Origin: Terebella lapidaria
Taxonomy: Eukaryota > Annelida > Polychaeta > Terebellida > Terebellidae
Length of the DNA: 64,000 bases
Assembly (NCBI GenBank): GCA_949152475.1
Contig: OX424561.1
Coordinates: forward strand, 29,072,481-29,136,480
Reading direction: 5' to 3'
Made by a program: the position numbers and the translations under genes. How positions within the stretch are numbered: position 1 is the first letter of the stretch; each line of letters opens with the position of its first letter. Positions 737 to 60,381 of the stretch are shown one piece after another. The notes beneath the pieces are model-generated. The model was given only the letters and a program-made list of their open reading frames with translations. It did no database searches and was not told the origin of the DNA.

Positions 737-738
737 TA

Positions 739-2918: not shown

Positions 2919-2924
2919 AATAAA
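2919..2924 (+). terminator. Poly-A signal AATAAA of PHYHIP-like paralog 1
   Basis: AATAAA lies about 395 bases after the stop codon at 2524, following an AT-rich stretch that would be the 3' untranslated region. It is followed by T/G-rich sequence (TTGGTTCTATTTGTTTGGG), the usual downstream element. Confidence 0.6.
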
Positions 2925-8700: not shown

Positions 8701-9502
8701 TTTGTGAGCAAAAGGGCGAATTATTGTCACAAGTCTCATCAAACAGTATTATCTCTCTATTACAGCTGATCGTTACTGTAAAGACGACTTACAACACCTA
8801 CTGCAGAAAGCGCAAACTTTTCTGCGCATGAACTGTCCAGTATACCGCGAAACCACATGGTTTTGTCGCGAGAAATTCAGGGCCTACTTCGACGACATTG
8901 ACGCCAATCACAGTGGCGTAATGACGAAATACACGAAAGATAATCACGGCGATCCCCGCAACCCAATCAACGGTCGAATCGACGGTCTCTTCTTCAACCC
9001 GTGTATCGATTACCTCACTGGACAGCCGCCGACCGACTCGATCTACGGCGATACACGGATCAAAGTCCGAGCAGGCAAGCTCTACAAGAGGGCGCCCAAT
9101 CTCTACTTCTCCGATTTCTACTGCGTCAGCGACAAGCACTTCCCGCACTATGTACAGCTCGTCATGACGTCAGACGGTACCGACGCCGACTGCTTCTGTC
9201 GGGCGAACCTCGTCCCCATCAGCGCCACCGACAGCGTCGAGAACCCGTTCTTCTACGTCGATGCCCCCGACACCGACGTTGCCGACGTCAGCAACACAGG
9301 GGCCATCGCCGACGTGGAACCGAAGTGTTTCGTCGCCTGCTCACCGTCGACTCGTAAAACCTTCTGGGTTGAGATGTTCTTCACTGACGACGTCGACTTG
9401 AAACTAGAACAGCCGAGGTCCCAAGTTCGTTATTTTGGACACAGATTTGGCGGCACTGAAGGACTGAAAAAGAACACAGGTTGCCCAACTTGTTCAAACT
9501 AA
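5795..9502 (+). CDS. PHYHIP/PHYHIPL C-terminal-domain protein, paralog 2 (two exons)
   Basis: Exons 5795-5834 and 8766-9502 give 258 residues. Exon 1 encodes MPPPQQAGPPLPP plus one base; donor GTGAGT, acceptor CTCTATTACAG, phase 1 exactly as in paralog 1. The domain is well preserved: WFCREKFRAYFDDI, YTKDNHGDPRNPINGRIDG, LFFNPCIDYLTGQPP, APNLYFSDFYC, HYVQLVMTSDGTDADCFC and EMFFTDDVDLK, ending CPTCSN with the same C-x2-C pair. There is no FN3 domain. The loop before the last strand is short and acidic (DAPDTDVADVS) where paralog 1 is Ala/Gly-rich and paralog 3 has a very long insert. The exon-2 coding region is GC-rich compared with its surroundings. The 2.9-kb intron carries a Harbinger-like element (6140-7672). 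Confidence 0.85.
6140..7672. mobile_element. PIF/Harbinger-like non-autonomous element in the intron of PHYHIP-like gene 2
   Basis: Inverted ends GGGGCCGGTCATTATTTATC (left) and the matching complement at the right end (about 7650-7672). Both are flanked by TTA (6137-6139 and 7673-7675), the three-base TWA target typical of PIF/Harbinger elements. Subterminal poly-G stretches with GGGGGTCAYACTTT occur near both ends in the same orientation. A 124-codon frame on the minus strand (6307-6681) has no recognisable transposase motif. Confidence 0.8.
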
Positions 9503-12150: not shown

Positions 12151-13945
12151 GGAAACTGATTGGGGTTTGAAATATACGTGAGGGCGAATTCAAGCCACTG
12201 TACAATACAAATTTCCGTGAACGATTCATGGTCTTCTGACTAATAACGTGAATATAAATCTGATTTTTCTTTCATAAAAATACCTTACTAATAGCATAGG
12301 AATGATTCACTTGTACATACTACATGTATGTGCACAATGGTGTTTCCAGCTATGCCAAAACATATAATATTTCTGACATTGGGGAACGTTTGGCGCGAAC
12401 CCGTGGCGTAGCAGACCGTGACGTATGTCAGTATATTATGCCAAACGTCAGCATCTTTGTAAGACGGCTTTCTAGTGTAGTGAGTTCTTAGTTTTATCTA
12501 CGCGACCCTCCTTGATTCGGTCAATGAACATCAGAATGATGCTATAGTCTTCATAATTTTATGGTATATGGATAAAAAATTTTCTTTTCGTTTACACTCT
12601 AGCGTTCATCATTTTGTGTTTTGAATTATTATAATGTAATAAATAAAGCGAAATGAATGAAATTGATTAAAAACAAGTACACTAGCTGAGAAGTGCACGC
12701 TAAAATGTGATCACCTGTACAGTTGAGTACACCCGTGTATTTATACCGTACATTTTGCTCAGAAATTTGCAGTATTTGAGCTATAGAATAGATAAAGCGT
12801 TTAATGACGTTATGATTTTTTTTGCCATTTCGCCATGACTATTGATACTGCATCACATAAGGTGTACATCTTATATTGTAGTTTTTCAGGAGCGGATCCA
12901 GGGATTTGGGGGAGGAGGAGGGGTGCGAACTATCTGAACGAGCCAATTGCAATCAGTGGCTCAGAAACCAGGGCCTTTTGTGTTTTGTGGTAGCTTCCTG
13001 GCCTAATCTCGCTCCTGAGTGTGCATTACATGTGCGTGCAAACTTATTCTAATTACCATGTTTTCGAACATATTGCAACACCAGGTCGGCCCCCGCGGGT
13101 CCGCCTATATAGTTTTGGTAAAACAATCGTACATATCCTGCACACACGGGACTTGCAGATTCGATGAGGTGGGATTTAGGTGCTAGATAACCAGCCTCTC
13201 CTGAGTAAATCGCCAGATAATCACCGAACTTTTGACGGGGTGGGGGAGTGCGGGGTCGGCTTGAAATTTTCAGGAGAATTAGGAAGCAAAGGTTGGTTGT
13301 CTCCATAAACACCCCAGACATCATTGCTGTAACCCACCGCTAATATTATATGCTTAAAAATTTACAGTCCGCAGGTATCAGAAGTTAACGGACAGCGAAT
13401 GGCTTGTTGCGAATACTAGTACCCAGAAGGGGAACATGTATATGCAGAGTAATCAATAAAAATTCATACTAGCATTAATACATACAGTATGAACATAGGC
13501 CTACATATTTGCTTACATGTATGATGCGAACTCAAACTCTTTTTCCAAGGTTATTCGGTGCGATATAACCGTTAGCCAATCAAGATATGACCCACACTAA
13601 GCATAGCTTTCTACATTATATGATCACAATACAAATCTACGCACTAAATGATTGAGGGTAAACATGAGATCCACCCTATTTCTATTCCACTGATAGATCT
13701 ATGCTCGTTACACAAATGTTGTCTTCCAATGACTTATGATCAATTTAGGTCCTCTACATCTTGGAGTAGTTTAACACCTAACCGTCTATAAACATGTGTG
13801 CCTGCATAGCCGTATTGCATGCAATATACTTCACTAAAGCCGAGTACAATATAACATCTATCATATAATCCGATTCTAGAAGAGTTGCTAATGTCCAATG
13901 CCAATCCAATGCCATGTTCATACCAGTATCATTATTTGATTGCCG
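12151..13945. other. Intergenic stretch upstream of PHYHIP-like gene 3
   Basis: AT-rich DNA with no called gene. By analogy with paralogs 1 and 2, a small first exon of gene 3 could lie here, with a few codons and a phase-1 GTGAGT donor, but I could not identify it. Confidence 0.4.
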
Positions 13946-15172
13946 ATGTCGTTCTCGCTAGACCAACGCTATCAGTTGAATCATCTCCAAGCGTTACTTG
14001 GGAAGGCTAAAACATTCGTGGAGAGGGCGGGACGTCGTCTGGTCGTATGCCAGTGGTTCTGTCGCGAGAAGTCTCAGGGCTACTTCCATTTCATTGAGGG
14101 AAGATGCAACGGTATCATGGAAAGAGGAATGAAAGACAACCACGGCGATCCGAAGAACCCTATCAACGGACGCCTCTCGGGTCTTTTCTTTACCCCGAGT
14201 GCATTCAACAGACAAGTACCTTGGAAGTCACCCTACGGTGACACTCGCCTCAAGATCCTGGCTAGCAAGATGGTAGAACGAGCGCCGAACTTATACTTCT
14301 CAGACTTCTACTGCGTCAACGATGCGCAGAATCCACACTATGTGCAGATTGTGATGACGAATCCGGGTTCTGAAGCGGATGACTTCTGCCGGAAGCACTT
14401 GATCGAGTTGAGTTCAAGTGACAACCCATTCTTCTACTGGACAACGAGAGATGTCGTCGAGTTGGTGGCCGAACCTTCCAACAACAATGATCCCGAGAAC
14501 GAGGGTTCCACTGAGTCAGGAGAGGATGCTGATGAAGATGGTAGCACCACGGCAAGAGATGTAGAAACTGTTGAGGAACTGACAGAAACTGTTGAGAAAG
14601 GTGAAGGTGAACAAAGTAAAGAAGCTAAAAATGGTGCCACTTCAAAGCGAGATCTGGTTGACGAAATTGAGCAGATGGCAAAAAAACAGGTCACGGCGGG
14701 GTTGAAGAAAGCTGAAGCTGAAAACGGCAGTGTCACTTCGAAGCGAGATCTGGAGGACGAAATTGGGGACGGAGAAGAAAAGCAACCAGCGAAGAAGCCC
14801 CGACTTGACCAATGCCAGAATCATGACGAAAGTGGATCTCACGATATCGACTTAAAGTCCGAGGTCTCAGAAGAAAATCCATCTCCGCTTGTAACGAATT
14901 CTGCTCCGGCAACATCTGGGATAAGACCACAGAGCAGAGCGCAGCCTGAGACGCGCATCGTCAAGGAAACCACGTGCTACATAAACTCTCAAAACCGTTC
15001 GACATTCTGGATAGAGCTGTTTTTCACGGAGGACGTCGACATGAAGCTAGGGGAGCCACTGTCCCCTGTAAGTCGTTTCGGTTATTTAACCGGAGGCCTG
15101 CCAAAGAATAGCGACTGTTCCGACTGCTGTCTGCGTCCGAGGAAGAACAAACGAGGAGCACGGCCCTTCTAA
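13946..15172 (+). CDS. PHYHIP/PHYHIPL C-terminal-domain protein, paralog 3, with a long acidic insert
   Basis: Read from the ATG at 13946 the protein has 408 residues. The domain is present: WFCREKSQGYFHFIEGR, MKDNHGDPKNPINGRLSG, LFFTP, APNLYFSDFYC, HYVQIVMTNPGSEADDFC and finally FWIELFFTEDVDMKLGEP. Between the strand NPFFYW and FWIELFF lies an insert of about 180 residues. It is rich in Glu, Ser, Lys and Thr and holds two copies of a unit built on TSKRDL-x-DEI, plus a basic patch KKPR. The C-terminus keeps a Cys pair (CSDC) and a basic tail. Alternatively the first coding exon here starts at 13962: CTCGCTAG then ACCAACGC matches the acceptor position and phase of paralogs 1 and 2, so an upstream small exon may exist. 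Strand and order match paralogs 1 and 2. Confidence 0.8.
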   Translation: MSFSLDQRYQLNHLQALLGKAKTFVERAGRRLVVCQWFCREKSQGYFHFIEGRCNGIMERGMKDNHGDPKNPINGRLSGLFFTPSAFNRQVPWKSPYGDTRLKILASKMVERAPNLYFSDFYCVNDAQNPHYVQIVMTNPGSEADDFCRKHLIELSSSDNPFFYWTTRDVVELVAEPSNNNDPENEGSTESGEDADEDGSTTARDVETVEELTETVEKGEGEQSKEAKNGATSKRDLVDEIEQMAKKQVTAGLKKAEAENGSVTSKRDLEDEIGDGEEKQPAKKPRLDQCQNHDESGSHDIDLKSEVSEENPSPLVTNSAPATSGIRPQSRAQPETRIVKETTCYINSQNRSTFWIELFFTEDVDMKLGEPLSPVSRFGYLTGGLPKNSDCSDCCLRPRKNKRGARPF

Positions 15173-18887: not shown

Positions 18888-19981
18888 GTTACCGGACAAA
18901 ATATGTTTTATATTTTAGATCATTTTTTAGTCATTTTTTCCCGTGACCTTGAAAATAAGGTCACTGGTCAAATGCAACTTCATGAGAATATCCAGCAAAC
19001 ATGTATATCATTCCCCATATGTCCATTGTTTGCTAAGCTGTAAATTCAATAACAAGTAAAACAAAATAGCAATTATATGACCTTGAAAATAAGATCGAAG
19101 GTCGAATTAATGGTCATCTAAATATTCCGCATACATCATCATAGGTGCACAACTGATTCCTAAGCTGCGAAGTCGATAATAAGTGAGATATTAGCCATTT
19201 TGTCCTGTGACCTTGAAAATGAGGTAAAAGGTCAAATTCAAGATCGCGACAATAATATGCATATATCATTTCCTATATGTTCATAATTGATTCCTAAGCT
19301 GTAAAGTCGAAAAGAAGCGATACATTAGCCATTTTTCCTGTGACCTTGAAAATGAGGTCAAAGGTCAAATTCAAGGTCATCAGAATATTCGGCATATATC
19401 ATTTCCTATATGTCCACAATTTTGATTCCTAAGCTGTAAAGTCGATAATAAGCGAGATATTAGCCATTTTGTTCTCTGACCTTGAAAAACTGGGTCAGAG
19501 GTCAAATTCAAGGTCACGAGAATATTCAACATATATCATTTCCTATATGTCCACAATTGATTCCTAGTCTCTAATCTCAATATTAAGTGAGATATTGGGC
19601 ATAATGTGTCCCATTATAAAGCATAGGAGAATTTAACATGGGGAAGTCCCCTTTGGGCCGAGTTTGGGCCAAAATGGCCCACTTCCAGCAGTTCAAGCAC
19701 AACGAAACTTATACACATCACAGCAGTGTATATGAGGAGTGTTATGGCCGCCAAAGTCCAAAATCAGGCATTTTTCGTCAAAAACGGCCGCCATTTTGAA
19801 AAAAAATTGCGAAAATCGGAAAACTTAAAAAAGAATTTCCTGGAAATATTTTGAGGTATTTTTGTGCAAAATTTCAGAAAGATTCGACCGTAAACTTTAA
19901 AGATAAAAATGTGAACGGACGGATGGATGACAGACGCAACGCCACGGCAACTAGGTTATCGGACCAAAGGTCCGGTAACCT
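18888..19981. mobile_element. GGTTACCGG-family repeat element, copy 2, with ~134-bp internal minisatellite
   Basis: This is the clearest complete member: left end AGGTTACCGGACAAAAT, right end AGGTCCGGTAACCT. The interior repeats a unit that includes TTAGCCATTTTGT, GACCTTGAAAATGAGGTC, AAGGTCAAATTCAAGGTCA and TTGATTCCTAAGCTGTAAAG. The TTAGCC landmark recurs at 19191, 19325 and 19460, spacings of 134 and 135. The right third is unique to the family: CAAAATGGCCCAC, then GGCCGCCATTTTG, GAACGGACGGATGGATGACAG and a small hairpin TCGGACCAAAGGTCCGG at the tip. No coding capacity. Confidence 0.8.
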
Positions 19982-32112: not shown

Positions 32113-33395
32113 AGGTTGCCGAACCATCGGTCCGATAATCTATTGCGTGGCGTTGCGTTCGTTGTCCGTCAGCGTCGTCGGCGTCGTCGTCTGTCTACAT
32201 TTTTATCTTTAAAGTATACAGACGAATCTCTTTGGATTTTTTTGCACTTAAATGTTTGAAAATATTTCAAGAAGGATGTATTCTTTTAGGTTTTGGGATT
32301 TTCGCAATTTTGATGGGAAAAAAAAACGTCCCGTTTCTGATTTTGGCAGTCATTTTCTCAAAAACTGTTCGAACAACTTTGAGATTTTTTTGTTTCAAGA
32401 GATTCCCCTCATGTACCACTGTGGCGTGTTTAAGTTTCGTTGTCCATTTTGATTTTTCGACCGGTCCCAAATTTGACATTCTTATGTAATTATCTTGTGC
32501 TTTATAATGGGACACATTATTTTTAATATCTCACTCAATATTGAGGTTAGAGATTAGGAATCAATTGTGGACATATAGAAAATGATATTTGCTGAATATT
32601 CTCATGGCCTTGAATTTGACCTTCGACTTTATTTTCAAGGTCAGAACACAAAATGACTGATATCTTGCTTATTATCGACTTTACAGCAATGGAATCAATT
32701 GTGCATGTAGGAAATGATGTATGCTGAATACTGACCTTGATTTTAAATCAATTGATTGGGAATCAATTGTGCACATACAGGAAATGATACATGCTGAATA
32801 TTCTTGTAATCTTGAACTTGACTTTTGACATTATTTTCAATTTCAGAGCACAAAATGGCTATTATCTCGCTTATTATCGTCTTTACAGCCTAACAATCCA
32901 TAGTGAACATATAGGAAACGATATATTTTGAATATTCTCATGACCTTGAACTTTACCTTCAACTTCATTTTCAAGGTCGCATGATAAAATGGCTAATATC
33001 TCGTTTATTATCGACTTTACAACTTGAGAATTATCGTGGACATATAGGGAATGATATATGCCGAATATTCTCATGACCTTGAACATGACCTTTGACTTTA
33101 TTTTGAAAGTCAGAGCACAAAATGGCTAATATCTCGCTTATTATCGACTTTAAAACTTGAGAATCAATTGTGGACATATTTGAAATGATATTTAAGCCGA
33201 ATATTCTGATGACTTTCAACTTGACCTTTGACTTCACTTTCAAGGTCACAGGGCGAAATTTCTTACATCAGTCATATAGGAAACAATATATGCTGAATAT
33301 TCTCGAGACCCTGAATTTGACCAGTGACATTATCATCAACGTCACGGGACAAAATGGCGAGTATCTAAAATATAGAACATATTGTCCGGTCACCT
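32113..33395. mobile_element. GGTTACCGG-family repeat element, copy 3
   Basis: Opposite orientation to copy 2. It starts AGGTTGCCGAACC with the hairpin tip ACCATCGGTCCGATAA and ends TTGTCCGGTCACCT. The ATGGCTA-type landmark recurs at 32858, 32991 and 33124, a spacing of 133 each. Lies upstream of gene B on its 5' side. Confidence 0.75.
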
Positions 33396-35879: not shown

Positions 35880-36582
35880 TATGGTAAATGATATGTGCTG
35901 AATACTGCTGTGACCTTGGATTTGACCTTTGACCTAATTTTCAAGTTCACATGACATAATGGCTAATATATCGCTTATTATCGACTTTACAGAATCAATT
36001 GTGAACATATGTGGTATGACGAATATTGGCAGGACCTTGAATTCGACCTTTGACCTCAATTTCAAGGTTACAGAACGATATGGTGAATATGTCGCTTCTA
36101 ATCGACTTTATAACTTGGGAACCAATTGTGGACATATAGACAATTATATACACTGAATATTCTGATGACCTCAAATTTGACCTTCAGGGTCAGAGCATAA
36201 AATGGCCAATATCTCGCTTATTATTGACTTTACAGCTTGGGAATCAATTGTGCACATATAGGAACCGATATATGCTGAATAGTGTCATGATTTTTCACAA
36301 GGTTGACAAGGTTGACAAGGTTTTCAATGTCAGAGCGCCAAAAGGTTTATATCTCGCTTCATTTTTCTCTTGAATTTGACTTCATTTTCAAAATCATATG
36401 ACAGAATTGCTCATATCTTTCTGATTATTGAATTAACAGCTGATAGCAATCAATTGTATATATCACAGGCAATTGATGTATACTGGATATTCTCATAACC
36501 TTGAATTTGAACAGTGACTTTATTTTCAAGAACACGGGACAAATGACTAATATCTAAAATAAAACATATTGTCCGGTAACCT
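35880..36582. mobile_element. GGTTACCGG-family repeat element, copy 4 (one end preserved)
   Basis: Ends TTGTCCGGTAACCT at 36582. The interior has the family unit (TTGACCTTTGACC, ATGGCTAATAT, TCGCTTATTATCGACTTTAC). The left end is not recognisable; the element is cut or decayed there. It is an insertion in unit 1 without an equivalent in unit 2. Confidence 0.65.
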
Positions 36583-36889: not shown

Positions 36890-37005
36890 CATTTTTTTTT
36901 AGGGGGGGGGGGGGGGGAAGGGGGGGGGTTGTTCTCTTTATTTTTCTTTGGGAGTGGGGGGGGGGAGTCGTTGACTCCCTCCCCCCCCCCCCCTTGGCTA
37001 CGCCG
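36890..37005. repeat. Poly-G / poly-C inverted tract
   Basis: Two G-runs (36902-36930 area, then 36957-36965) followed by a C-run (36981-36993) can pair as a hairpin or form quadruplexes. The flanks AACCGCCCC-type are not conserved. Runs this long are also places where assemblies tend to be wrong. Confidence 0.6.
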
Positions 37006-37424
37006 ATTGCCACCGTGTTCGTACTGAGGCTCACAGGAGTAACGCACGCTTTTTATACTTGTATATGTCCGAGTGTAAAACTTCATAGGTCTATAGTCAT
37101 CTTTTCGATTGTAGGCTGCCTGGTTTGTTTGAAATGTACAACGTATCAATTTAATTCAGCGTATAGGCCTATATGTAGATAGGGTCGAAAAAAGATATTC
37201 AAACTTCTTGGTAGGCCGACATAATGGACAATTGAGGTTGTGGTAACCTCGGTGTCCGGGATTCTACCTGAGCTGGGAATAATCTATGTACAATCGCATT
37301 ATTGTGGTGCTGTATTTATTGGGCCTACACTTTGAAACATACATCATAAATTATGGTTTTGCATCGTGTTCTGCCGTCTTTGATGAGGCTCTCTCCGTAT
37401 GAACTGACACTAGTGACTCGAAGG

Positions 37425-40400
37425 ATGGTTGCCACGGTTACAATATCACCAAGTCGGCTTTTAGTGGACGAGCAATGGTCGCTGACCGTGAAAGGCCTGG
37501 ACCCATCGCAGAGAATCACATTGCTCTGTCGTCTGCACGAACCAAACATCAAACTTTCCGCACATGCGCACTACGTCAGTGACGAACGCGGCGTCGTTGA
37601 CGTCTCCACAATGGCGGCCGAGAGCGGCGGTAGTTATGCAGGTAAGCTGTAGCCATACAAATTACACTGACTTCTTTATCGTTTAATTTAGTTACACATC
37701 CTAATTGATTGCTAATTTAGGCGTCACCTGCTCATACTGTATTCATGAGTTATGTTGGAATCAATTTTAAAATCAGCCAAATTTAGCATTCTTGTTTGTC
37801 ACACAAACTTGAAAGTACATCTCGAGATAGTCGGAAATATATAGCAAATATGCACAGTTCGACAACAAATACTCAGAAAATTGCCGTTAATCGTGCATGC
37901 AAACAGTGGATAGAGAATGATCAGCCTGTCTACATTGCCGGTTGCCACAGTATCTAGACAAACTAGACGATTAGACTAGGCATTTCGGGGTAATGCATGA
38001 AAAAACCAAAATGTTTGTTTTTATATGTTTGTCTAGGGCAATGAGTCCGAAAATAACGTCCGTCTAGCTCTATCTACGATGTATCATTTCTGAGATATCG
38101 ACGAAAATGAAAAATGCCGACTCAGCAAAAAAATTTGAGGTCAAGGTCAAAGTTCATTCCTAGTACCCCTCAGATATATTTGTCTACGGCCACGAGTCCG
38201 AAAATAACATCAGTTGCCCTCTACTACCACAGTGCCGAAACCGACTATGGTAACGCGCATTACCATAATCAAAAATGGCGGCAGGTATTTGTGGTTCGAA
38301 TTTGATCGAGCTTAACAACTTCAATGAGAGGCTATTTTGAAGCATTCAGCAGTCTGTGATATAAAGTTGATTGTGCTGCACACAATTAATAAGGCGAGTT
38401 ACAGAAAAATGGGCTTTATCTACGAGATATCGGCGACTGAAAATCGTGGCTGACTATGGTAACGCCCGAGTCAAAGGATACATTGACTATGGTAACGCAT
38501 AGTGTCGACTATGGTAATGCATTCACTACTTCACTTCAAATAATATATATAACACAAGAATTGAACTATAATTTTTACGATATTCGTATATTTACTGCAA
38601 GTAATAGTTCTGTTTCAGGTTACAGTGCAATTTTTTCTTTAAACCTGCAAATATATACTGTACTGGGTGTAGTACCGTGCTGAAACCCATGCTGACATCG
38701 TGAGATGTAGAACCACTGAGTCGCATGTGATTAGTCCCGGTTACGTGCTGACACTTCGTAATTTGATGACAACAGGATCGATGGACTGAACACAGTTTGC
38801 GGACGATGTTCCAATATATGAAAACACAGGCCGTCACTTTCCGACGTCACTGCCCTGAATACAGGAACAAGGACAAGGGTGCGTCGGACTAGTAAATATT
38901 GAAATATTTGAATAAAATGGGACACTTCTTACCCCTCGCACATCAGTTGTAAGAAAGTTGCCTCGAACTAAGTTCCCTACTCCTCTTATTACTCAGTATA
39001 TTTATCAGAGATAAAAGATGGCAGACGGATAGAATGGCATCCGCATTTAGTGGACCATGGAGTAACATAATAGTAGATTAATTGGGGTGCAAATTCCCAG
39101 AGGCCCAAAGAGCATGGTCCCAAAATCAATGGCGACATACCGGTATTAATATTTACCCAGACAAACATGGTTTGTTCTCGATATAGGATAAAAGGCCTAG
39201 ATAGAAAACAAGATGAACTGTGCCACAGGTATGACCCACAGGCCCAACACTCCTTTTATAACCTCTCTTTTGCCTTCTCTTTCGTATTTTAGGCATGATT
39301 GTTGTCGTGAAAAGGCACCAACATAGCCTACGTTAATGGTGATCCATGTTCACACGACAAAAACACCCGTCTGCCTACAAATTCTCTACAAATCACACTC
39401 ATATATCGTCAATTTACATGCGACTCGAACGTACAGTGTGACCAGTGAGGGTCGCCGCGACCAGATCTCATGCGACTGGCATGCAACCGAGTCGCTGCAA
39501 CTGACTCGCATAGTCTGAGGGCAAGCTTAAATCAAACTTGCATTGTCTCCCGTTTTTGAAATTCCTCAATATTTCTGACAATTTGATGGGGAAATGCACA
39601 GATTTGTAAAATGCACAGATTTGTCTCATCATGGTAGCATAGGTCTGAAATGGTAATATTGATGGAGTTGCTGACCTGTGTACAGTAATAAAATCGTATA
39701 GTTTGTTTTACATGGATTTGTGATAAAATAACAGATGATCCGAGAGTTTTCAACACATTTTTATTCTACCCCTCAAATCATTGTTATGTTGACAAAGAAT
39801 TGTGTTTGTGTACGAAAGCCCCATCGCATTACCATAGTCATTAAATTTCCTACAAATCACATTACCATAGTCTGACATTCGCGTTACCCTAGTCAGGACA
39901 CAATTGTCCACACTCCGTTTCCACTAATATATCACCAAGTGACTCATTGCACATATTCGGGATTAACCTACATGTATCGATTTCGCTATCTGTCGAAGAT
40001 CCACTCGATTTATACACGTTATATGCATATAAATTCACGAGCAAATTCGAACCACAAGTGCCTGTCGCCATTTTCGACTATGGTAATGCGCGTTACCATA
40101 GTCGGTTTCGGCACTGTGTACTACGCACCGTTTCTGAGATATCGACGAAAACGAAAAATGCTGATTCAGCGAAAAAATTTGAGATCAAGGTCAAAGGTCA
40201 TCACTAATGCCCTTAAGACAAGTTAGTATAGGGCCAGGAGTTCGAAAATAACGTCTGTTTCGCTCTACGACGTACCGTTTCCGAGATATCGATGAAAACG
40301 AAAAATGCCGACTCAACAAAAAAATTCAAAGTCAAGGTCAAAGGGTCCCTAATACCTCTTAGACATGTTTGTTTAGGACGACGAGTCCGAAAATAACGTT

Positions 40401-43400
40401 AGTTTTGCTCTACGGTACACCGCTTCTGAGATTTCGACGAAAACGAAAAATGCTGACTCAGCGGAAACATTTAAGGTCAAGGTCAAAGGTAATCCATAAT
40501 ACCTATGATGTCTGATGTCATATGATGTCTGTTTCACTGTACTATGCACCGTTTCTGAGATATCGACGAGAACGAAAAATGCTGACTCAGCTAAAAAATT
40601 TAAGGTCAAAGTCAAAGGTCATCCCTAATACCCTTAAGAGATGTTTGTCTAGGGCCACGAGTCCGAAAATAATGTCCGTTTCGCTCTACGACGCACCCTT
40701 GCCGAGATATCGACGAAAACGAAAAATGCCTACTCAGCGAAAAAATTTAAGGTCAAGGTCAAAGGTCATCCATAATACCCTTTAGACATGTTTGTTTAGG
40801 ATGATGAGTCCGTTTCGCTCTACGACGCACCGTTTCTGAGATATCGACGAAAACGAAAAATGCCTACTCAGCGAAAAAATTTAAGGTCAAGGTCAAAGGT
40901 CATTCATAATACCCTTTAGACATGTTTGTATAGGATGACGAGTCCGAAAATAACGTCCGTTTGGCTCTACGACGTAGCCTTGCCGAGATTTCGATGAAAA
41001 CGAAAAATGCCAACTCAGCAAATAAATTTGAGGTCAAGGTCAAAGGTCATCCCTAATACCCTTAAGACCTGTTTGTTCAGGGCCAGAAGTCCGAAATTAA
41101 CATCCGTTTCACTCTACGACGCACCGTCTCCGAGATTCCGATGAAAACGAAAAATGCCAACTCATCGAAAAAATTTAAGGTCAAGGTCAAAGGTCATCCA
41201 TAATACCCTTTAGACATGTTTGTTTAGGATGAAGAGTCCAAAAATAACGTCCGTTTCGCTCTACGACACACCGTTTCTGAGATTTCGACGAAAATGAAAA
41301 ATGCCGACTCAGCGAAAAAATGTAAGGTCAAGGTCAAAAGTCATTCATAATACCCCTTAAGCATGTTTGTCTATGATGACGAGTCTGATAATAACGTCCG
41401 TTTCGCTCTACGACGTACTGTTTCCGAGATATCGACGAGAATGAAAAATGCCGACTTAACTAAATAATTTAAGGTCAAGGTCAATGGTCATCCATAGTAC
41501 CCCTTAGACATGTTTATCTAGGATGACGAGTCCGAAAATAATGTCCGTTTCGCTCCACGACGCACCGCATCAGAGATATGCATGAGAGCCTCAAAGATGA
41601 CTCAGTTAAATTATTTCAAGCCCTAGGTCAAAGGTCGTTTGACGGATGGGCTTCAAAATCAATAGGCTTCTTCCCTGGTAAGTTTCACAGTCATTGCCAT
41701 AACACTTTTTGAGTTATCGTGCGGAAACCATAAACATTGATTTCATCCTCACGGACCTCACGGACCCCGGAGCCAGCTAGAAAACAACAGGCTTCTTCCA
41801 CACAACATTTCTGCACAGCGGTGGAAATTTTTTTGGCAAAGATACATCCAGGCAAATTAAAATTACCGTGCGGAAACCAAAAAGTGAAGGAAAAAAAGAA
41901 AAAGAAATGTTGACAAAACCATAAAAACATTTCTGCTGAAATGCCTTAATACCAATGACGTCATGAGACTGTGTGTAGAATCCGCCCGCGAGGCGGGGCT
42001 TTGAGGAAAAAATTGATGCGAAATAGACTGGCCCCAATTTGAATACTGATTTGGCAACTCAATTTAGGTACGTACTACGCATTTTTAGACCCCAGTTTGT
42101 ACAATTTGCTTTAATTTCCTGGGAGCCACATTTTCAATATTGGCTGTGCTAAAGCCACATTTCCAAAAAGACAAGGTACATTGTTTATCTAATGAATGAA
42201 ATTTATCTTGAATATATTTTATACACGTACCACTATTATAATTGTCATATCTTTTTCTTTCATTATTAAAGATTTTTGTGTGACAAGTTGACACTATTTG
42301 GAGTTGAGCCCATTGGACTGATCTGGAGTCTCACTCAAGAGCCGGGACAGAGACCTGGCAAACGCCTCCTTAAACTTGACGTACAGAATCCGCTGATTGC
42401 AAACGTCTACGTTCTGGACGGTTTTCTGGACACTGCCAAGGCTTTAGGCTCGGTGGACAGTGGCAATGCAATGGCTTCGACGTCATGCGAGAGAAGTTAC
42501 ATGGCAGAGGGTGTAAGTCGAATACCAGTAAATGAAGGCAGCATGCAAGGAACATTGTTCATTCCAAAGGGTATGTGCACGTTATTAGGTCATATACCTG
42601 TAACAGAAACAGAATGATGCTGGAATTTCTTGGTGAAACTGTATTTGAGTTACACATTTTAATATTCAAAAATATATATATTCTTGTTAAGGGCAAAAGT
42701 TTAGTTTGTTGAAATGCTACCAGGATTTTCCACACATGTGTTGATGACTTGCACCTACCTGCAGGCCGTGGTCCGTTTCCCGGAGTGGTGGACTTTTTCG
42801 GCGCGGTGCCAGGGCTGTACGAATATAAACCTGCCTTACTGGCATCGAGGGGCATTGCAACATTTACCGTCAGATATCTGACAGAGGACGGATCTGGACT
42901 CAGCATGTGCTCGGATGTTGGCCACTTCGTGGTATGGGACTCTTGAAGAAACTTGATGTAGTGGAGCCGACAATTAAAGTAACGTTACAGTTGCTAATAT
43001 TATTAATTTATATATAACTCTATATGTACTGAATCCCTATCTGAATTTTCTTTTAACTAGTTAGAAATATTCTAACAATTGAAAAGGTTTTTTTTTATTA
43101 TTTTGCAGACAGCAGTTGATTACCTATTGAGTCACCCGAAGGTACAGAAACCGTACGCCGGCGTGATTGGTGTCTCAAAAGGTGCTGGGCATGCACTTCT
43201 TCTAGCCACTTTCTGTCATAAGGTAAAAGTATTCTTATATATTTGCGTGTATTCTATTGTTATTCACATACCGGTATTCTTTTCTCATCATGTATATACG
43301 TTATCTGTGCTCACAACGTACATTTTTTAAGAACTTTCAACTGGACAGCTGATTAGAATATTTTTGTTTCATCGAAGCGTCAAATAAATTTCATAGCAAC

Positions 43401-46790: not shown

Positions 46791-47685
46791 TTCGAAATTG
46801 GTTGGGAAAAAATATATGTTTGATAACTGGCGCACAAACCGGAACTATCGCGAATAATTAGAAATTTCTCTTTCTGGCATTGAAAGCAGGTTGGTCAAAC
46901 CCACAGTCAGTCACCAAACTTTCACGTAGGCTGAACCCAAGGCCGATAAAACATCCGAAATGTTGGTCTATGGTGAACACATGCTGCATGTGCTCTATCA
47001 TGATTAACGACTTACAGTACAAACATGGCAGGTGATAATAATCGTATCACATGCTCACGGCGTATCAAGTTGAGGTAGGCATTCGTGTAGATACTTTTGC
47101 AATGTCAACACTGAAGTACATGATTGTATTCGTTGTCTGACATTGCAAAAATGTACAATCTTTCCTACATGTACATGACAGTACTCAACATTTATCATGT
47201 TATAAACTTGTACACTCGGTATTAAATCAGACCTGGCCATGATGGCATTTACACCTTATCCCATTATTAGACAAACCATTCTGAGTGAAGTCCACGGTCG
47301 AGTCTTTGGACTTCGTCACTGAACTCAATACACTCTCAGATAAATGAACGATACGTGTCGGGCATCTTTTCTCTCTCTCAAAAAAAGAGACATACGATAT
47401 TAACAGGTACATGAATATTCGAAATTTTGAGTAGAATAAATTGGAAGTTAATAGACCATTATGCATGTTTCACAGTGAAGCTATACGAATTATGTTTTAA
47501 TCTTGTACACTCGGTATCAAACCAGGCCTGGCCTGATTAGCTAGACGATCTTTGATGTGTGAAATAAACGTACGTGCAAATAACTGGAAACGTGTTCCTT
47601 TTTAAACTAGACGTCAATGCCTGAAGATTTCGGTGTTTGAAGATTTCGGTGTTAAGACTAATTTATAATATTTATAGCACGTTTG
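46791..47685. repeat. Left arm of duplicated unit 2 (non-coding)
   Basis: Counterpart of 34081-34890. Identifying phrases: TCTCTTTCTGGCATTGAAAG, GATTAACGACTTACAGTACA, AAGTCCACGGTCGAGTCTTT. No coding capacity. Confidence 0.65.
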
Positions 47686-47956
47686 CCACGGGCTCTACGA
47701 CACACGAAGGACACACACAAGATATCGACGAAAATGAAAAATGTCGATTCAGCAGAAAAATTTGAGGTCGAGGTCAAAGTTCATCCCTAATACCCTTACA
47801 CAAGTCCGAAAATCATGTTCGTTTCGATCTATGATGCACCGTTTCTGAGATACCGCCGAAAACGAAAAATGCTGACTTGGCAAAAAATTTCAGGTCGAGG
47901 TCAAAGTTCATCCATAATACCCCTCAGATATGTTTTCTAGAGCTACGAGTCCAAAA

Positions 47957-48963
47957 GTACGGAAGCCCGTAGAGGCCAGAAAATGAAAGGTGTGAAAATA
48001 TATAAAACATAATTATCTGTAGGACGTGGCTTGAAATATGAGGAGAATTCTTGTAAAGCAATATACGTATAGCTAATTAGGCCCTAGTATCCAAATAAAA
48101 GTCGTGACATACTGTATTAATGACTATACTGTTTTTAATGAGACAATGATATATTGGGTATTGGGGGAGGGGGGGGGGTTGTTGACATGCAAATTATTCA
48201 ACAAAACTTAACTTTCACACTTAGCATTATATAGGGATCATCAATGAATTCATGTTATTTGTTGTGGCCATGGCAACTGGGCCCTCTGCAATTATGGTTG
48301 CTACCATCGATATATAGGTTAAAGGAAACAAATAAAAACAGTGCATATTCGATGGTGGTGACAAATATTCGTCAAATTATCTGATTAATATTGTGTGTTC
48401 CTTTTTTTCTTAGTTTTTTTCCCGTATGGATTATGTATTGAAAGTTGCCATATGGTCCATAATACCAATCAATGACATGAAAATATGTACATTTCATCCC
48501 CCAAACAAATATTCGTTAATTTTATTGAGGCATTCTTGGGCCATATATGTTACAATATAAATCGGCATTGACCGATCAGAGTCACTTTGCATGTGACTAA
48601 CGCGCACCACTCCTATGGGATGCTGGTATTCGGAGAGGGGGGGGGGGGGAGAAGTTTTTTTTATAAATCCAGGGTTAGTAACTTGATAATATCGACTTAG
48701 TATATCGATAATGTATCTCAAATAAAATGTAAATTTTATTTTATTTTAAAATGAATTTCTATGGATAGACCAAAATGCTGTGTTAAAGCACTAAATAAGT
48801 GGTGGACGCCAGATAATTATGTGGCGGCCGCCAGATAATTATGTGGCGGCCGCCAGATAATTAAGTGGCGGCCACCAGATAATTAATTGGCGGCCGCCAG
48901 ATAATTATGTGGCGGCCGCCACCTAAATATATTTTCACACCTGGCACTAACGGTCTTCCGTAC
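47957..48963. mobile_element. 1.0-kb inverted-repeat transposon inserted in the 147-bp satellite
   Basis: Ends GTACGGAAGCCCGT and ACGGTCTTCCGTAC are inverted, with a second inverted match GGTGTGAAAATATAT / ATATATTTTCACACC inside. AAAA lies on both sides (47953-47956 and 48964-48967). Contains a poly-G tract (48171-48178), a second G tract near 48638-48649 and, near its right end, a 22-bp minisatellite. No transposase frame. Confidence 0.8.
48800..48923 (+). repeat. 22-bp minisatellite with NotI-like GCGGCCGC core, about six units
   Basis: Units of GTGGCGGCCGCCAGATAATT plus AT, repeated six times with few changes (GGTGGACGCC, GGCGGCCACC variants). Each core GGCGGCCGCC is a palindrome. Lies inside the transposon at 47957-48963. 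Confidence 0.85.
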
Positions 48964-49510
48964 AAAAGTAACATTGGTTTCGCTCTACAACACCCCATTT
49001 CCGAGATATCGATGAAAACGAAAAATGTCGACCCAGCAAAAAAATTCAGGTCGAGTTCAAAGTTCATCCATAATACCCCTTAGACATGTATGTCTAGGGC
49101 GGCAAGTCCGAAAATAACGTCCGTTTCGTTCTACGGAGCACCGTTTCCGAGTTATCGCCGAGAACGAAAAATGCCGATTCGGCAAAAAAAAATTCAGGTC
49201 AAGGTCAATGTTCATCCATAACCCTCTTAGACATGTTTGTCTAGGGCGACGAGTAAAATATAACGTCCGTTATATTGACCTCTAGGTCAAAGGTCGGTTG
49301 ACGGATCGATCTCAAAATTAATAGGGTTCTTCCCCCACGAACCTCGGAGCCGGCTCAAATACAATACGTTTCTTCCACAAATCATTTCTGACTAGTGGCG
49401 GTAGATTGGCAAGGATCCATCAAAGCAATCTAAAGTCATCGTCCGGAAACGAAAACGGTGGAAGGAAAAGGAAAAAAAAATTCTGCTAAAACCATAAAAG
49501 CCTATCATAG

Positions 49511-50309
49511 GCCTATGAAGTCCAATAATCTATCCCTCGCCAGGATGGGAATTTCATTCGAACAGCCACGTGAATGCCCTGTAAATCTTCACCAGAAAAT
49601 AATATGTACACAGCAGAACAACCGTAGCCTACTTTGACACCGGAATGTACAAACAGGGCGCATACCCGGGACAGTGATACTGCGATGTGTGCTACATGTG
49701 CGCTGTTCGCACGATATAAAGTTTACTCTGATCCTTATCGATGTCCTTGTCGTTGAAACATGTGTCTATCCGACAGTTTTAAGCACACGAATGCAACGCC
49801 ACTTGTCTTTTGCCAAGGATAACTCCTCTTAATTGTTGACGTTATGGTTATGTATTTTACAAAGGTCGACATGCATCGATTGCCATCGAGCACGTACTGA
49901 GGCTCAAAGGAGTAAAACACACGCTATATATAATGTGTGAAACTTCATAGTCAGCTTTCAGTGAATTATATTTGTTCCTGATTCGTTTAAAATGTATCGT
50001 AAAACATAAATTTCATTTAGCGCATATATGTACAGGTAAATAGGGCCAAAACAAACACTTCCTGGTAGGCCGACGTCCATAATTGTGGTTGTGGGTATTG
50101 TGTCTGGGTGACCTCAGTGTCCGGGATTCAACCTGAGGTGCGAATCATCTACTAGGCCTAATATGTACAATCACATGTGGTGTTGTATTAGGCCTACACT
50201 TCGAAGCATACAGTGTACAACATGTTTCTGCGTTGTGTTGTACCGTCTTTGATGAGGAACTCTCCATGTAGCTAACTCTCCATGTGCTCTGACACTAGTG
50301 ACTCAAAGG
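49511..50309. repeat. Duplicated non-coding segment upstream of gene D
   Basis: Counterpart of 35107-35350 and 37030-37424, sharing CACGTGAATGCCC, GTGCTACATGTGCGCTGTT, GTAGGCCGAC and GTGTCCGGGATTC. Closest to gene D it preserves the region that in gene C encodes the N-terminal extension. Here that frame (ATG at 50222) stops after 17 codons, next to a small direct duplication of AACTCTCCATGT. Confidence 0.6.
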
Positions 50310-53300
50310 ATGGTTGCCACGATTACGATATCACCCAGTCGACTTTTAGTGGACGAGCAATGGTCGCTGACCGTGAAAGGTCTGGACCCATCGCAGAGAA
50401 TCACACTGCTCTGTCGTCTGCACGAACCGAACATCAAACTCTCCGCGCATGCGCACTACGTCAGTGACGTACGCGGCGTTGTTGACGTCACCACAATGGC
50501 GGCCGAGAACGGTAGTTATGCAGGTAAGCTGCAGCCCTGAAAATCATACCGAATTCTATCTTACGGTATTTAATTCAGTTACAGGTTGTAATTGATTGCG
50601 AATTTAGATGCCTCATGCTCATGCGATATTCATGACTTTGTTTCCTGGGTTGCCACGTTTTCCATATTCACTGTCCGGAATCCGTTTCGGCAGAGGATAT
50701 TGGGAAACGATATTTTTCGGTTGGGAAACGATATGTTCGATTGGGAAACGCCAAGCTGCAAGGGGGTATGTGTTGTTTTCCTCAATAAAGTATGAAAAAA
50801 TAGGTATAATCGTTGATCAGAAGAAAGACAAACATGCGCTGATGTTGTATAAAGTCTTCAGTGTCGACCAAACCTGCTATACTTGAAGTAATATCGTTTT
50901 TGTGACGTGAAATGTGATGAAAATCACACCGAAAATCAACAAATGAACACTGATGATTAAATATGTGTCTGATGGACACAAAAAGTAAAACGAGTCAAGA
51001 GAAAGGTGTATTACATGATCCCCACCGAAAAGAAACATTTTACAACGTCTCATTAATAAATGTTTGCTGATTTTCTGAACCATTGATGATTCGGTGGGTA
51101 AACGATACTGTTCCGATTGGACAACAGTTCTGATATAGATGTTTCGATTAGTAAACGATATTTTATTGGAAATGTATGGCCCGTTAAGGCTCGTTTTTGG
51201 CTATTATTCATTCATACTTATTATTTCTTCCAACAGATGGCGTCTTGTGGCCTAAACGCCAGGTGTTATAACTGTCATTCCAAGTTTGAGGACTCTAACC
51301 ACATTGTGAAGCACTCATTTGACAAACACCAAGAAAAAAACCTTTTCAACACTGAGACCCGCTGTGGACAAGGAAACAGGGAAAAATTAGCTTAGAAATA
51401 TTACCGGAGAACTGTACAATGTTAAGGTCTCAAAGTCTGCAATGGTAATTTTTCAACAATGTCTGCCCAAAGGGACATTATTTTCTATATGCTTACAATT
51501 GATTCTTAAGTTGGAAAGTCGATAATGAGCGAGATATCAGCCATTTCGTGCTCGGACAAAAAAAAATGTCAAAGGTCAACTTCAAGCTTATGAGAATATT
51601 CGGCATATGTCATTTCCTATATGTCAACAATTGATTCCTAAGCTGTAAAGTTGATAATAACCGAGATATTAGCCACTTTGTTGTCTGACCTTGAGGTAAG
51701 ATCAAAGGTCACGAAAACTCCACAATTGATTCCTCAGCTGTAAAGTCGATAATAAGCGATATATTGGCCATTTTGTGCTCTGACCTTGAAAAATGAGATC
51801 AAGGCCAAATTCAAGGTCATCAAGAAATTTGACGTATATCATTTCCTGTATGTCCACAATTGATTCCCAAGCTATAAAGTCGATAAGGAGCGAGATATTA
51901 GCCATTTTGTCCTGTGACCTTGAAAATTAGGTCGAATGTGAAATTCAAGGTTATGAGAATATTCATTTATATCATTTCCTCTATGTCCACAATTGATTCC
52001 TAATCTCTAATCTCAATATTGAGTGAGATATTAGCAATAATATGTTCCATTATAAAGCACAAGAGAATTTAACATGGGAAAGTCCCTTTGGGCCAAGTTT
52101 GGGCCAAAATGGCCCACTTTGAGCGATTCAAGGGCAAAGAAACTCAGGCATGTCGCAAAGGTACATAAGGGTGATCTCTTCAAACGACATTCTGAAACCG
52201 TCTGAACAGTTTTTGAAAAAATGGCCGCCAAAGACCAAATTTGACCAATTTTCTGACAAAAAAGGGCGCTTTGACCTTTCGAGGTCATTGAAGGTCAAAT
52301 TTAAGATCACCACCGAAACCACAATATATGATTTCCTATTTGAATGTGCCAATATGTAAGCTCCATCTTTAAGTGTTCTAGGAGTTCACTCCATATAGCT
52401 CCCATTGTGAAGGAAAAATTGCGTGAAATCCAAAAAAGTTTTCAAAGGGGGAAATTTTTTTGGTTGGATACCATAGTGACTTGATTTGGGACGAAAAAGT
52501 TTTTTTTTTCACCAACCTGTCGAAAATTCAAAATGGCCGCCACATGCAGACCGGCGATTCAAGGGCAACAAAACTTATACACTTCAGATAGGTACATAAG
52601 AGGAATCTTTTTAAACAAAAATCTCAAAACTGATCGGACAGTTTTTGAGAACACAGCTAAAAATTTTGGGCCTTTTGAGCCTAAATATTGGGCCTATCGA
52701 GGCACTTCATCTTAATACACATTGTCAAGGACCCAAATTAGCATGTTTTGAAACAAAAATCTCGAAACTTTTTCTATTATGTCGAGCCGGGCACATGATT
52801 CACCTTATTTCACACCCAAAATGTTGTGCATACAGTCATATAATTAATAATTCACTCGAGGTAACCTTTCACTAAAGACCACACAGTATTGCTTGTGTAT
52901 AACAGTTGATCTCGTATTTCATATGTACAAAACTTTGCGTTTCTCAATCGAAACAGCATGGTTTACCAACCGGCGCCTTCTCTATACGTATCGTTTACCC
53001 ACCGAAACATCAATGGTTCAGAAAATCAGCAAACATTTATTAATGAGACGATGTAAAATGTTTATTTTTGTTGGGGATCATGTAATATACCTTTCTCTTG
53101 ACTCGTTTTACTTTTTGTGTGCATCAGACACATATTTAATTATCAGTAGTCATTTGTTCAAAACGGAGTGATTTTCATCGCATTTCATGTCACAAAAATG
53201 ATATTACATCAAGTATAGCAGGTTTGGTCGACACTGGAGGCTTTATACAACATCAGCGCATGTTCGTCTCTCTTCTGATTAACGATTACACCTATTTTTT

Positions 53301-56300
53301 ATACTTTATTGAGGAAAACAACACATACCCCCTTGCAGCTTGGCGTTTCCCAATCGAACATATCGTTTCCCAACCGAAAAATATCGTTTCCCAATATCCT
53401 CTGCCGAAACGGATTCCGGACAGTGATATTGGTTGTGTCAGTGTTTTCCAAAGCCTCATTGCACATTGCTTACCTGGTGTTTAACAATGATTGTGGGGAT
53501 TTCTTCTATACGTGTATCACTATTATAATTGTCATCATTTTTCGTTATTATAGATTTTTGTGTGACACTATTTGTTAATACTGTTTGTAGGAATTGAGCC
53601 TATGGGACTGATCTGGAGTCTCACTCAAGAGCCTGGACAGAGACCTGGCAAACGCCTCCTTAACCTTGACGTACAGGATCCGCTGATTGCAAACGTCTAC
53701 GTTCTGGACGGTTTTCTGGACACTGCCAAGGCTTTAGACTCGGTGGACAGTGGCAATGCAATGGCTTCGACGTCATGCGAGAGAGGTTACATGGCGGACG
53801 GTGTAACTCGAATACCAGTAAATGAAGGGAGCCTGCAAGGAACTTTGTTCATTCCAAAGGGTATGTGCACGTTATTAGGTCATATACCTATCACAGAAAA
53901 AGAATGATGCTGGTATTTCTTGGTGAAATTGTATATTTCAGACCTGAAGTTTGCTTGAGTTACACATTTTATTATTCCAAATATATATATATTCTTGTTA
54001 AGGGCGAAAGTTTAGTCTGTTGAAATGCTACCAGGATTTTCCACACATGTCTTCGTGACTTGCACCTACCTGCAGGCCGTGGTCCGTTTCCCGGAGTATT
54101 AGACTTTTTCGGAGCAGTGGTAGGGCTGTACGAGTATAGACCTGCCTTACTGGCATCTAGGGGTATTGCAACCTTTGCCGTCAGATATCTGACAGAGGAC
54201 GGATCTGGATTCAGCATGTGCACGAATGTTGACCATTTCGTGGTACGAACAAACTTGTTTCATTTACAGTTATATTACTAGTTAATAGTACAGTTATTAA
54301 TATTAGTACTTCATATATAACTCTGTACTGAATACGTCTCTGGATATTCCTTGTGTAGGTTCGAAAAATATTGTATAACTAGTTAGGAATATTCTATCAA
54401 TAGGATTTTTTTCATAATTATTTTGTAGACGGCAGTTGATTACTTATTGAGTCACCCGAAGGTACAGAAACCGTATGCCGGCGTGATTGGTGTCTCAAAG
54501 GGTGCTGAGAATGCACTTCTTCTAGCCACTTTTTGTAATAAGGTAGATATTCTGATATATTGTTATGTATTCTACTAATATTATTCACATATTAGTGTAA
54601 CTTTTCACATTTGTATAGAAAACTCAAACATATAAATACACATACATGTACGTTACGTCATTCTAATATTCATATGTGCTCACAACGTAAAGTTTTAGGT
54701 ACTTTCAGTCGGAGAGCTGATTTGAAAGCTTTGTTCATCGAAGCATCAAATGAAATTCATAGCAATAAGTTTTATTCAAATTATCACAAAGTAAACTCCA
54801 CGACGACATTAAAATATTAGACAATATGGATTTTGGGGCAAATATAGTGTACATATAGGCCTAATGTACATTAAATATTGGATATTAAAATCAAAATCAG
54901 AACATTTAGATAATTTTCGATTTAAAATTCAAATATGTGTAAATATAGGCCTAAATGTCGTATACCATACATGTATAATCCAGATAAAAGCCTGTGTTGC
55001 GATTTCATCCTTCGACCTCGTAACGATGACTGACTACACATTTGACTCTGAAACGATTCCTGGAAAAAGGTATAGCAATCATATCTGTAAATCGTAACGT
55101 ATTTTTGCTCTGTCCATCTACACGTAAAATGTTGTATCAGTGCATTTTACAACAATAAAACAATACACAAGTTCTCACATTTGTAGGCCTATATCAAAAT
55201 TTATTAATTCATGATCACAGTACATGACATGTACATATATTTACAGTTACAGACACCATTCTAATTATTATAGAAACAAAAATACTTTTTCAGCTTGGAC
55301 TTTGCTGGAGGAGATATTACCGAGGAAGGAATCAATTTCACCAGAATAAATAACCCCTCAGAGGAGGAACGAAAGCCTCATCAAATACCGGTAAATAGGA
55401 AGAGATTATCCAATCATAATCAATGTTTGGATAATTCCAAAGTGATATTTTACACATATGTAGCATATTTTTGGACAGGACCTCCCCAAAACAATGCACG
55501 TAGCCACTTACATGACACAACTACACTCACACGCCACCGTACCCATACTTGCATGCACAAGACACGATCGATACTCACATTCCATTCACGCGCATCCATG
55601 ACAACATAGAGAAATTACAGACGAGAATACAACACGTGCACAGATGACTTCACATTCAACTAATCAGACACAACTTCCGCAACACTAGGCGGGAAAACTA
55701 GCGGCTTGGCCGAAAAAGCGCGTCGCGCCGCGCGTCGCGCCAGCGCGTCGCGCCGCGCGTCGCGCCAACTAGCAGATTTTAGGTACAAGTTCACCACATG
55801 GCAGACATTAAGTTTGGCAACTTTGGCTTGAGTCCACGCACGAAGTTCATAATAAAACGGCTGTCTACACCGACAAAGACGTGTACAAGAGTGCACATAG
55901 AACTTTGGCAAAATCATAAAATATACAGTGTGGAGAGAAGAACCGAAAATGATTCTTCTGTGACCTTAGCCTATCTGGCGATTAGCTTTGTCTAATGGGC
56001 GAAGTGCACTGGCGCAGGCGAAGACGAAGCGAAGGTACGAAATGAAACCAAAACTAAAACTAGTATACACAGAGTTCTGGTAAATTGCGGTTTGTATTTT
56101 TTGGCTGGTGAAGTGGTGATCATCTTCGGAATCTCTTGGGGGTACAGACGAAAGCAAGACGAAGCGAAATGAGTGAAAACTATAGTGGTAATTCAACCGA
56201 CGAATACTGTATGGGAATACTGTACTGTATTACAAAGGATTGCATTATGGGCAAAGCGTTTAGTAATACTTCAATAATTGTTCACGATAAAGCCTAAGTA

Positions 56301-60025: not shown

Positions 60026-60381
60026 TTACCGGACAATTTAGGTTTAAGCACCTCAGGTTTGATATTAACGTTGGTATGACCTTGAGATTTACCAATCGAG
60101 GTCTTCTTCGTGAACTTCAATGTCATTGTGGAATAAATTGTGAACATGTAGAAAATGATGTATGCCTAATATTTTGATGACCTTGACTTTGACCTTTGAC
60201 CTCATTTTCAAGGGCAGAGCACAGAATGGCTAATATATAGCTTAATATCGACTTTACGGCTTAGGAATCAATCGTGAATATGTAAGAATGATATATGCTG
60301 ATAGAATAATACATGCTATTATATCTTGAATTTGGTTATGGCTAATATCTAATAAAAATAGAAAACATATTTGTCCGGTAA
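60026..60381. mobile_element. GGTTACCGG-family repeat element, copy 7 (short)
   Basis: Starts AGTTACCGGACAATTTAGG and ends TTGTCCGGTAACAT. Two diverged interior units with CCTTGACTTTGACCTTTGAC and ATGGCTAATAT. The smallest complete copy in the window, with only about two units. Confidence 0.7.

Follow-up and report, generated by a model that had tools for sequence, protein, structure and literature searches.

Non-autonomous rolling-circle transposons that carry satellite-like repeats in their interior have been described from Drosophila, mites, a mosquito and bivalves. In the oyster Crassostrea gigas, the Cg_HINE elements are reported (PMC7492417) to consist of a left flank (with a subterminal repeat, its complement and a microsatellite), a short satellite-like array and a right flank of ~60 bp (with the subterminal repeat and a palindrome), and to be dispersed without target duplication, with a preference for TT targets. 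The Pearl elements of bivalves, as described in the same study, hold short arrays of up to six central repeats of ~160 bp within a HINE-like frame. The DINE-1/HINE elements of Drosophila, mites and mosquito are characterized, in the account of PMC4067079, by a 3' palindrome, central repeats, subterminal inverted repeats (set in by 2-4 nt at the 5' end and by ~38-60 nt at the 3' end), insertion without target modification, a preference for TT and variable terminal Ts; canonical Helitrons, as defined there, begin with TC, end in CTRR with a palindrome ~11 nt upstream, and insert between A and T without duplication. Here we describe a 147-bp tandem array in a stretch of 64,000 nucleotides of the annelid Terebella lapidaria (the whole stretch analysed, hereafter the window; G000:C7:29072481-29136480 in a 762-Mb assembly of 438 contigs), which very probably forms the tandemly repeated centre of a non-autonomous rolling-circle transposon, of the Helitron/Helentron kind and dispersed through the genome.

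The exact 147-bp period, claimed in a preliminary description of the window, was confirmed by Tandem Repeats Finder (TRF; period 147, 7.3 copies, 40527-41579), by the autocorrelation that the same description had proposed as a check (40110-41630: 0.643 at lag 147, 0.508 at lag 294 and 0.401 at the next-highest lag, 281), and by the spacing of units both here and at loci fetched from elsewhere in the genome. The units of the window start at 40136, 40283, 40428, 40557, 40704, 40838, 40985, 41132, 41279 and 41426, their successive steps measuring 147, 145, 129, 147, 134, 147, 147, 147 and 147 (exactly 147 in six of nine). Five of six steps had initially been counted as 147 and the sixth as 134, put down to a deletion; by alignment there is indeed at the latter a 13-bp deletion between GTCCG direct repeats (unit 40704-40837, minus strand), but the steps of 145 and 129 had been omitted. 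The TTAAGG landmark from which that count was made is exact at 40600, 40747, 40881, 41175 and 41469 (five of the seven positions originally given), as well as at 40471, and is replaced by variants at 41028, 41322, 40179 and 40326, where the spacing is nonetheless kept by alignment. The units are diverged (mean likeness 83%), and TRF additionally reports a 294-bp period, i.e. some alternation of unit variants.

Comparison with the heads and tails of the fetched copies places this array inside a non-autonomous Helitron/Helentron-type element (element 1, 37963-41949, minus strand), whose 5' end lies at 41949 and whose 3' end (CTAG) lies at 37963, the bases adjoining both ends also fitting an insertion between A and T. 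From its 5' end, and on the same strand throughout, element 1 comprises a subterminal repeat with its complement (a hairpin decayed here, 41925-41949, set by the same comparison of ends), a single-copy left flank with an A/T-rich tract (41571-41924; common to the fetched loci and in part to element 2), the main part of the array (40125-41579, unit starts 40136-41426; TRF, autocorrelation, alignment and profile), the severed rest of the array (38023-38221; profile matches at 38023-38090 and 38092-38227) and a 3' flank (37963-38022) in which the palindrome has decayed and the 3' subterminal repeat is matched by AGGCATTTCGG (37978-37988, plus strand). The interval 38100-41630 had been taken for one array; it is in fact divided by a terminal-inverted-repeat transposon of 1.9 kb (38228-40118; 81-bp arms, 93%), inserted in a 147-bp unit between two copies of the target duplication TACTAC read from the sequence (38222-38227 and 40119-40124). 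By count (without joining the parts), the interrupted unit (38092-38227 plus 40125-40135; profile positions 1-136) amounts to exactly 147 bp. The inverted repeats of this transposon begin with CACAGTG, and repeated GACTATGGTAACGC motifs lie near both of its ends. A second array, previously placed at 47.7-49.3 kb, does hold four full or partial units and is likewise interrupted; it belongs to element 2 (47607-49517, minus strand; 3' end found by pattern, 5' boundary approximate), a diverged copy of the same family. The insert is another inverted-repeat element of ~1 kb (47958-48962; CGGAAG.. ends, GC-rich 22-bp tandem repeat at 48792-48921), flanked by CAAAAG (47952-47957 and 48963-48968) as a tentative duplication, so that the two diverged elements have each been struck by a different transposon.

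A genome search with one window unit gave 1,199 candidates, the 40 best-scored of which supplied 116 matches; 20 loci of 8 kb were fetched from the best matches (a sample hence biased toward the window unit). At these loci the conservation of the array flanks stops at sharp edges, beyond which the sequences are mostly unrelated. On the plus strand of the window the layout reads as a short head ((A)CTAGACGTCAAGGCCT..GGAGGCATTTC), the array and a long tail with a terminal hairpin (GGCATTTC..GAAATGCCTTAA(T)). On the minus strand a host A is followed by TTAAGGCATTTC(A/G)GC with its nested complement (together the 5' hairpin) and by an oligo-T tract; then come unique sequence extending over a few hundred bp, the 147-bp units (~3-20 of them), a stretch of ~60 bp with the 3' subterminal repeat and the palindrome, and finally CTAG and a host T. 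Both ends are available for 21 elements. In 16 of these the 11-bp subterminal inverted repeat (AGGCATTTC(A/G)G) agrees exactly at the two ends, and across the set its variable base covaries between the ends (11 G/C, 8 A/T, one mismatched in L020 and one unreadable in L012), being complementary in 19 of the 20 readable cases. The 5' end of these elements is TTAAGG in 18 (TC in one, L002), A precedes it in 19, and T follows the 3' end in all 21. The host side beyond the 3' end is T-rich (first base T in 30/30, second in 27/30), and the end itself is CTAG in 29 of 30 and CTAA in one, a count that leans to CTAG since the search pattern contained it (while tolerating two mismatches). The undecayed 5' hairpin has a 10-bp stem, as stable in none of 200 shuffles, and the 3' palindrome has a stem of 6-7 bp situated ~8 nt upstream of the CTAG end, with shuffles as good in 15/200 and 3/200 for its two variants.

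The joined 60-bp flanks of 20 elements (one of the 21 had too short a flank) were compared with the sequence fetched here, and natural empty sites were clear for three of them: L018 1402-3228 against L014 (95% over 120 bp, gap-free), L018 3483-5571 against L025 (97.5% over 119, gap-free) and L022 3011-4801 against another part of L022 (93.4% over 121, with one gap off the junction); two weaker junction matches (L005 and L025) were left uncounted. At all three sites the element inserts between A and T, with no target duplication. Furthermore, for exact ends listed on one chromosome, a 3' end on the same strand lies at most 6 kb from 64 of 83 5' ends, as against 1/83 in the opposite-strand control (of 100 5' ends listed, 17 outside the stretch covered by the 3' list were dropped), and the median element length is 2.2 kb.

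Boundaries, paired ends and insertion between A and T are features of the fetched copies; how many end and unit sequences there are, and how widely they are dispersed, is seen in the genome-wide data. Allowing up to two mismatches, the genome holds 36,708 matches to the unit core, 5,377 to the 3' terminus and 3,516 to the 5' terminus (each with a reversed-pattern control of 0), these being pattern matches whose individual places are not each confirmed as whole elements; if each core marks a full unit, the cores would total ~5.4 Mb (36,708 x 147 bp), or 0.7% of the assembly. The 25 arrays of at least three units at the 20 fetched loci (shorter arrays, matches not exceeding 75 bits and loci numbered below L017 having been dropped) show a step of exactly 147 in 140/193 cases and within one base of it in 164/193. 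A sample not picked by likeness to the window (on one chromosome, the first 100 listed places with an exact unit core) has 31 steps of 147 among the 37 between neighbours less than 200 bp apart. Over the window and loci L017-L046 (274 kb, biased in that most loci were picked for the 147-bp unit), TRF reports 33 non-overlapping arrays of period 147, 8 of period 134, and other periods once or twice each. Between the fetched loci the number of units per array varies from 3 to 20, and five arrays have in common a first step of 133 bp, i.e. a length change shared by position. Viral contigs held no exact match to the 3' end of the element, and none of four sequence strings occurs in open-licence literature text. 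At L031 a diverged relative of the 147-bp unit forms a longer array (1-3362) with matches every 1,202 bp, resembling a higher-order repeat of ~8 units, and at 3743-3850 of the same locus a 147-bp element sits directly behind the end of a related element, head to tail.

Set against the described systems, the element has subterminal inverted repeats of at least 11 bp, a palindrome of moderate stability near the 3' end, and no target-site duplication at the three empty sites, all of which are features of HINEs; its insertion between A and T (T-rich on the 3' side, A on the 5' side in 19/21) departs from the TT or T-rich target of that group. On the other hand, it has in common with canonical Helitrons a CTRR-form 3' end (CTAG) with a palindrome a few nt upstream (8, as against ~11) and insertion between A and T without duplication, but it begins with TT in most copies rather than TC, and its subterminal inverted repeats fall outside the definition given in PMC4067079. 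As one tested feature of each is lacking (the TT target and the 5' TC, respectively), we do not file it strictly as a HINE or as a canonical Helitron, though it works like both. Its likeness to Cg_HINE extends over the composition of both flanks, the short satellite-like array, the dispersal and the absence of target duplication, the difference lying in A and T with CTAG here against the TT preferred there; this likeness, as that to Pearl, is one of described architecture. One Cg_HINE cluster (CL6) has a consensus monomer of 147 bp in Table 1 of the oyster study and an average of 146 in its text (PMC7492417). With the DINE-1/HINE elements characterized in PMC4067079 it shares the 3' palindrome, the central repeats, the unmodified target and the placement of the subterminal inverted repeats (here 3 and ~40 nt from the ends), and it is set apart from them by its target and by their variable terminal Ts. 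We therefore regard it as a new family of a known kind, that of non-autonomous rolling-circle elements with satellite-like central repeats.

The genome encodes many potential suppliers of the rolling-circle machinery: Helitron_like_N gives 150 scored matches of 234 candidates, with reported open frames of up to 2,866 aa, and both Rep proteins examined carry RGSPHAH or RGSPHIH (a serine of the RGSPH type is described as Helentron-type in PMC4067079). Several observations nevertheless weigh against our assignment. The target between A and T and the CTAG end are Helitron-like, differing from the TT of typical Helentrons, so that the superfamily placement is mixed; a close match to the 3' end is absent from two 10-kb loci with Helentron-type genes and from eight stretches of 3.6-4.0 kb downstream of other Rep matches; and the scored Rep matches lie, as compared by eye, no nearer than ~100 kb to any of 100 listed 3' ends or of 48 variant ends (which differ in their upstream sequence). 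Moreover, the covariation of the subterminal repeats mostly splits two subfamilies, and the 19 covarying elements are therefore not independent events; the 3' palindrome exceeds its shuffles in stability to no more than a moderate degree; a clear empty site was lacking, in the sequence examined, for 17 of the 20 tested junctions; and the first of the three empty sites shows two differences from the uninterrupted copies, at bases immediately 3' of the junction. Even the loosest pattern of the 3' end matched near Rep genes only with 6-9 substitutions. Since an autonomous partner with the same ends was not found, a weak negative in that only a small part of the genome was covered, we infer rolling-circle mobilisation from the structure; the oyster study (PMC7492417) likewise could not link autonomous partners to its elements.

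Alongside the 147-bp family, the window contains arrays of a second family with a unit of 134 bp, at 18927-19564 (minus strand; TRF and profile), 32557-33366 (plus strand; TRF and profile, with a decayed 3' end and palindrome behind it), 35880-36555 (plus strand; profile) and 51512-52000 (minus strand; TRF and profile), together with a single unit at 60130-60260 (plus strand; profile). The architecture of this family is the same, its 3' end is a distinct one that likewise bears a palindrome, and its steps are exactly 134 in 44/91 cases and within one base in 63/91 (matches below 40 bits and loci L001, L009 and L037 dropped); its 3' end is the commoner of the two (12,467 genome matches vs 5,377, not each confirmed as an array). 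Homology between the two units was considered and is not claimed, the best local score (24) lying below the shuffled maximum (32), although both units contain TGACCTTTGACC-like runs. Two of the eight stretches also hold units of the 134-bp family (L043 447-734 and L044 1512-1860), no more than a few kb downstream of Helitron_like_N genes, which is a possible lead to the autonomous partner of that family. In the window, 37004-37756 resembles 49877-50642 (74%) and 42217-42934 resembles 53504-54245 (88%), in the same order, and the array enclosed by these similar blocks has a unit of 147 bp in one copy and of 134 bp in the other.

We propose that the 147-bp element would be mobilised in trans by one of the many Rep/helicases encoded in the genome, its transfer presumably proceeding through a single-stranded intermediate and ending at the 3' palindrome. 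The units would have multiplied in source elements through unequal exchange or slippage, with whole units gained or lost, after which the element would have spread copies of the array around the genome, the constant period being inherited. A variant of this scheme, in which rolling-circle copying itself multiplies the units of a mixed-end element (with covarying Helentron-like subterminal repeats and a Helitron-like A and T target and CTAG end), seems to us rather doubtful; if true, gain and loss of whole units during transposition would keep the period exact. That the repeat might instead be a true satellite, amplified and homogenised locally with no mobile element involved, could be argued from its tandem copies, from the partial alternation of unit variants in the window and from the spread in copy number between loci, yet such a satellite hardly accounts for dispersed copies with constant ends, for empty sites or for 5' and 3' ends that are paired. 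Furthermore, in 12 of the 25 arrays (one recent subfamily, up to six units per array) units are no more alike within a locus than between loci: adjacent units have a likeness of 0.942, and units of different loci 0.949-0.952 (~95%), with hardly any difference between those of the same index (0.952) and of different index (0.949), although the first unit on the head side differs from the others. The homogeneity therefore predates dispersal and is not local, and the suggestion of a recently homogenised array, made in the preliminary description, holds in the sense that homogeneity preceded the spread as a mobile element. For the elements with empty sites the true-satellite reading is refuted, and in general we give it almost no credence, while long unassembled arrays elsewhere are possible; the very label of satellite is misleading for the fetched arrays, which are short, dispersed and contained within a transposon. 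A constraint on length, the other explanation offered at the outset for the strict period, did not find support: the mean difference between units is ~10%, and indels per substitution amount to 0.061 among units (0.074 among those of one locus) as against 0.094 for 5 short tails and 0.084 for 9 long tails of the non-repeated part of the same elements, which is a small difference drawn from few tails (those retained from the 25 arrays after dropping tails without recognisable ends or of odd length), so that the array is at most mildly depleted in indels.

Selection of the unit to wrap one nucleosome core, the array serving as a nucleosome-phasing platform, strikes us as very improbable, even though the modal length of the family is exactly 147 (also in the chromosome sample not picked by likeness to the window) and corresponds to 14 turns of 10.5 bp. 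Tests of ~10-bp periodicity were mixed. The SS periodicity of the 147-bp consensus is high (reached by 12/500 shuffles and 17/1037 background segments), and the mean of 80 units, which are related to one another, exceeds that of shuffles (SS 5.66 vs 2.68, AA/TT/TA 3.65 vs 2.57, WW 3.61 vs 3.00); but the WW (197/500 and 414/1037) and AA/TT/TA (106/500 and 203/1037) values of the consensus are ordinary, and the 134-bp unit, which is not of core length, scores higher (reached by 28/1037 for WW and 7/1037 for SS). For one window unit, the AA/TT/TA value was reached by 46/500 shuffles and 131/1037 background segments. The periodicity of the raw array (reached by 2/500 shuffles for WW, 0/500 for AA/TT/TA and 4/500 for SS) was set aside because any 147-bp array has a harmonic at 10.5 bp. 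Some ~10-bp periodicity thus appears to exist, and it does not seem to favour the 147-bp length. Moreover, a core-length unit leaves no room for a linker, and the 134-bp family pairs the same architecture with a strict period of its own and a commoner 3' end; the preliminary description had made the nucleosome link depend on one modal length, and this family supplies another (44/91 steps). The arrays could alternatively be retained as dispersed regulatory platforms through a direct repeat of the putative nuclear-receptor half-site AGGTCAAAGKTCA (DR1 type). It is present in 199/262 units of the 147-bp family and 46/91 of the 134-bp family, and all 13 such sites found in the window fall within arrays or units of these families; its conservation is nonetheless ordinary (ranks 12, 16 and 18 of 39 non-CpG windows in the 147-bp unit, 29 of 97 in the 134-bp unit), and we consider this reading, too, highly unlikely. 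As regards unit lengths in general, satellites are described as being mostly either of nucleosomal length or of 5-10 bp (PMC8122249), candidate centromere repeats are described as not conserved in unit length (PMC4053949), and the oyster clusters with the same architecture are reported to span 138-181 bp, with one at 147 (PMC7492417). A unit of 147 bp is one of several lengths that have arisen; that one family should have exactly 147 is, in our judgement, within chance expectation, and the match to the nucleosome core looks, on present sequence comparisons, like a coincidence.

Elsewhere in the window, PHYHIP_C matches occur in three open frames (1844-2524, 8828-9502 and 13940-15172), apparently a local gene family, and a tandem repeat of 21/42 bp based on the palindrome CATACGTATG lies at 5062-5350; tRNA and Rfam scans of the window found none. 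Among the fetched loci, L036 contains an 85-bp tandem repeat (6010-8001, 23 copies) that runs beyond the locus.

Taken together, these observations replace a coincidence of length by a plain explanation, and suggest as a rule that, where a short and strict array recurs at many loci, fixed flanks should be checked for before chromatin is invoked. Moreover, we consider that the covarying subterminal repeats, together with the mixed Helitron and Helentron ends, constitute a natural data set on the end sequences needed by rolling-circle transposases.

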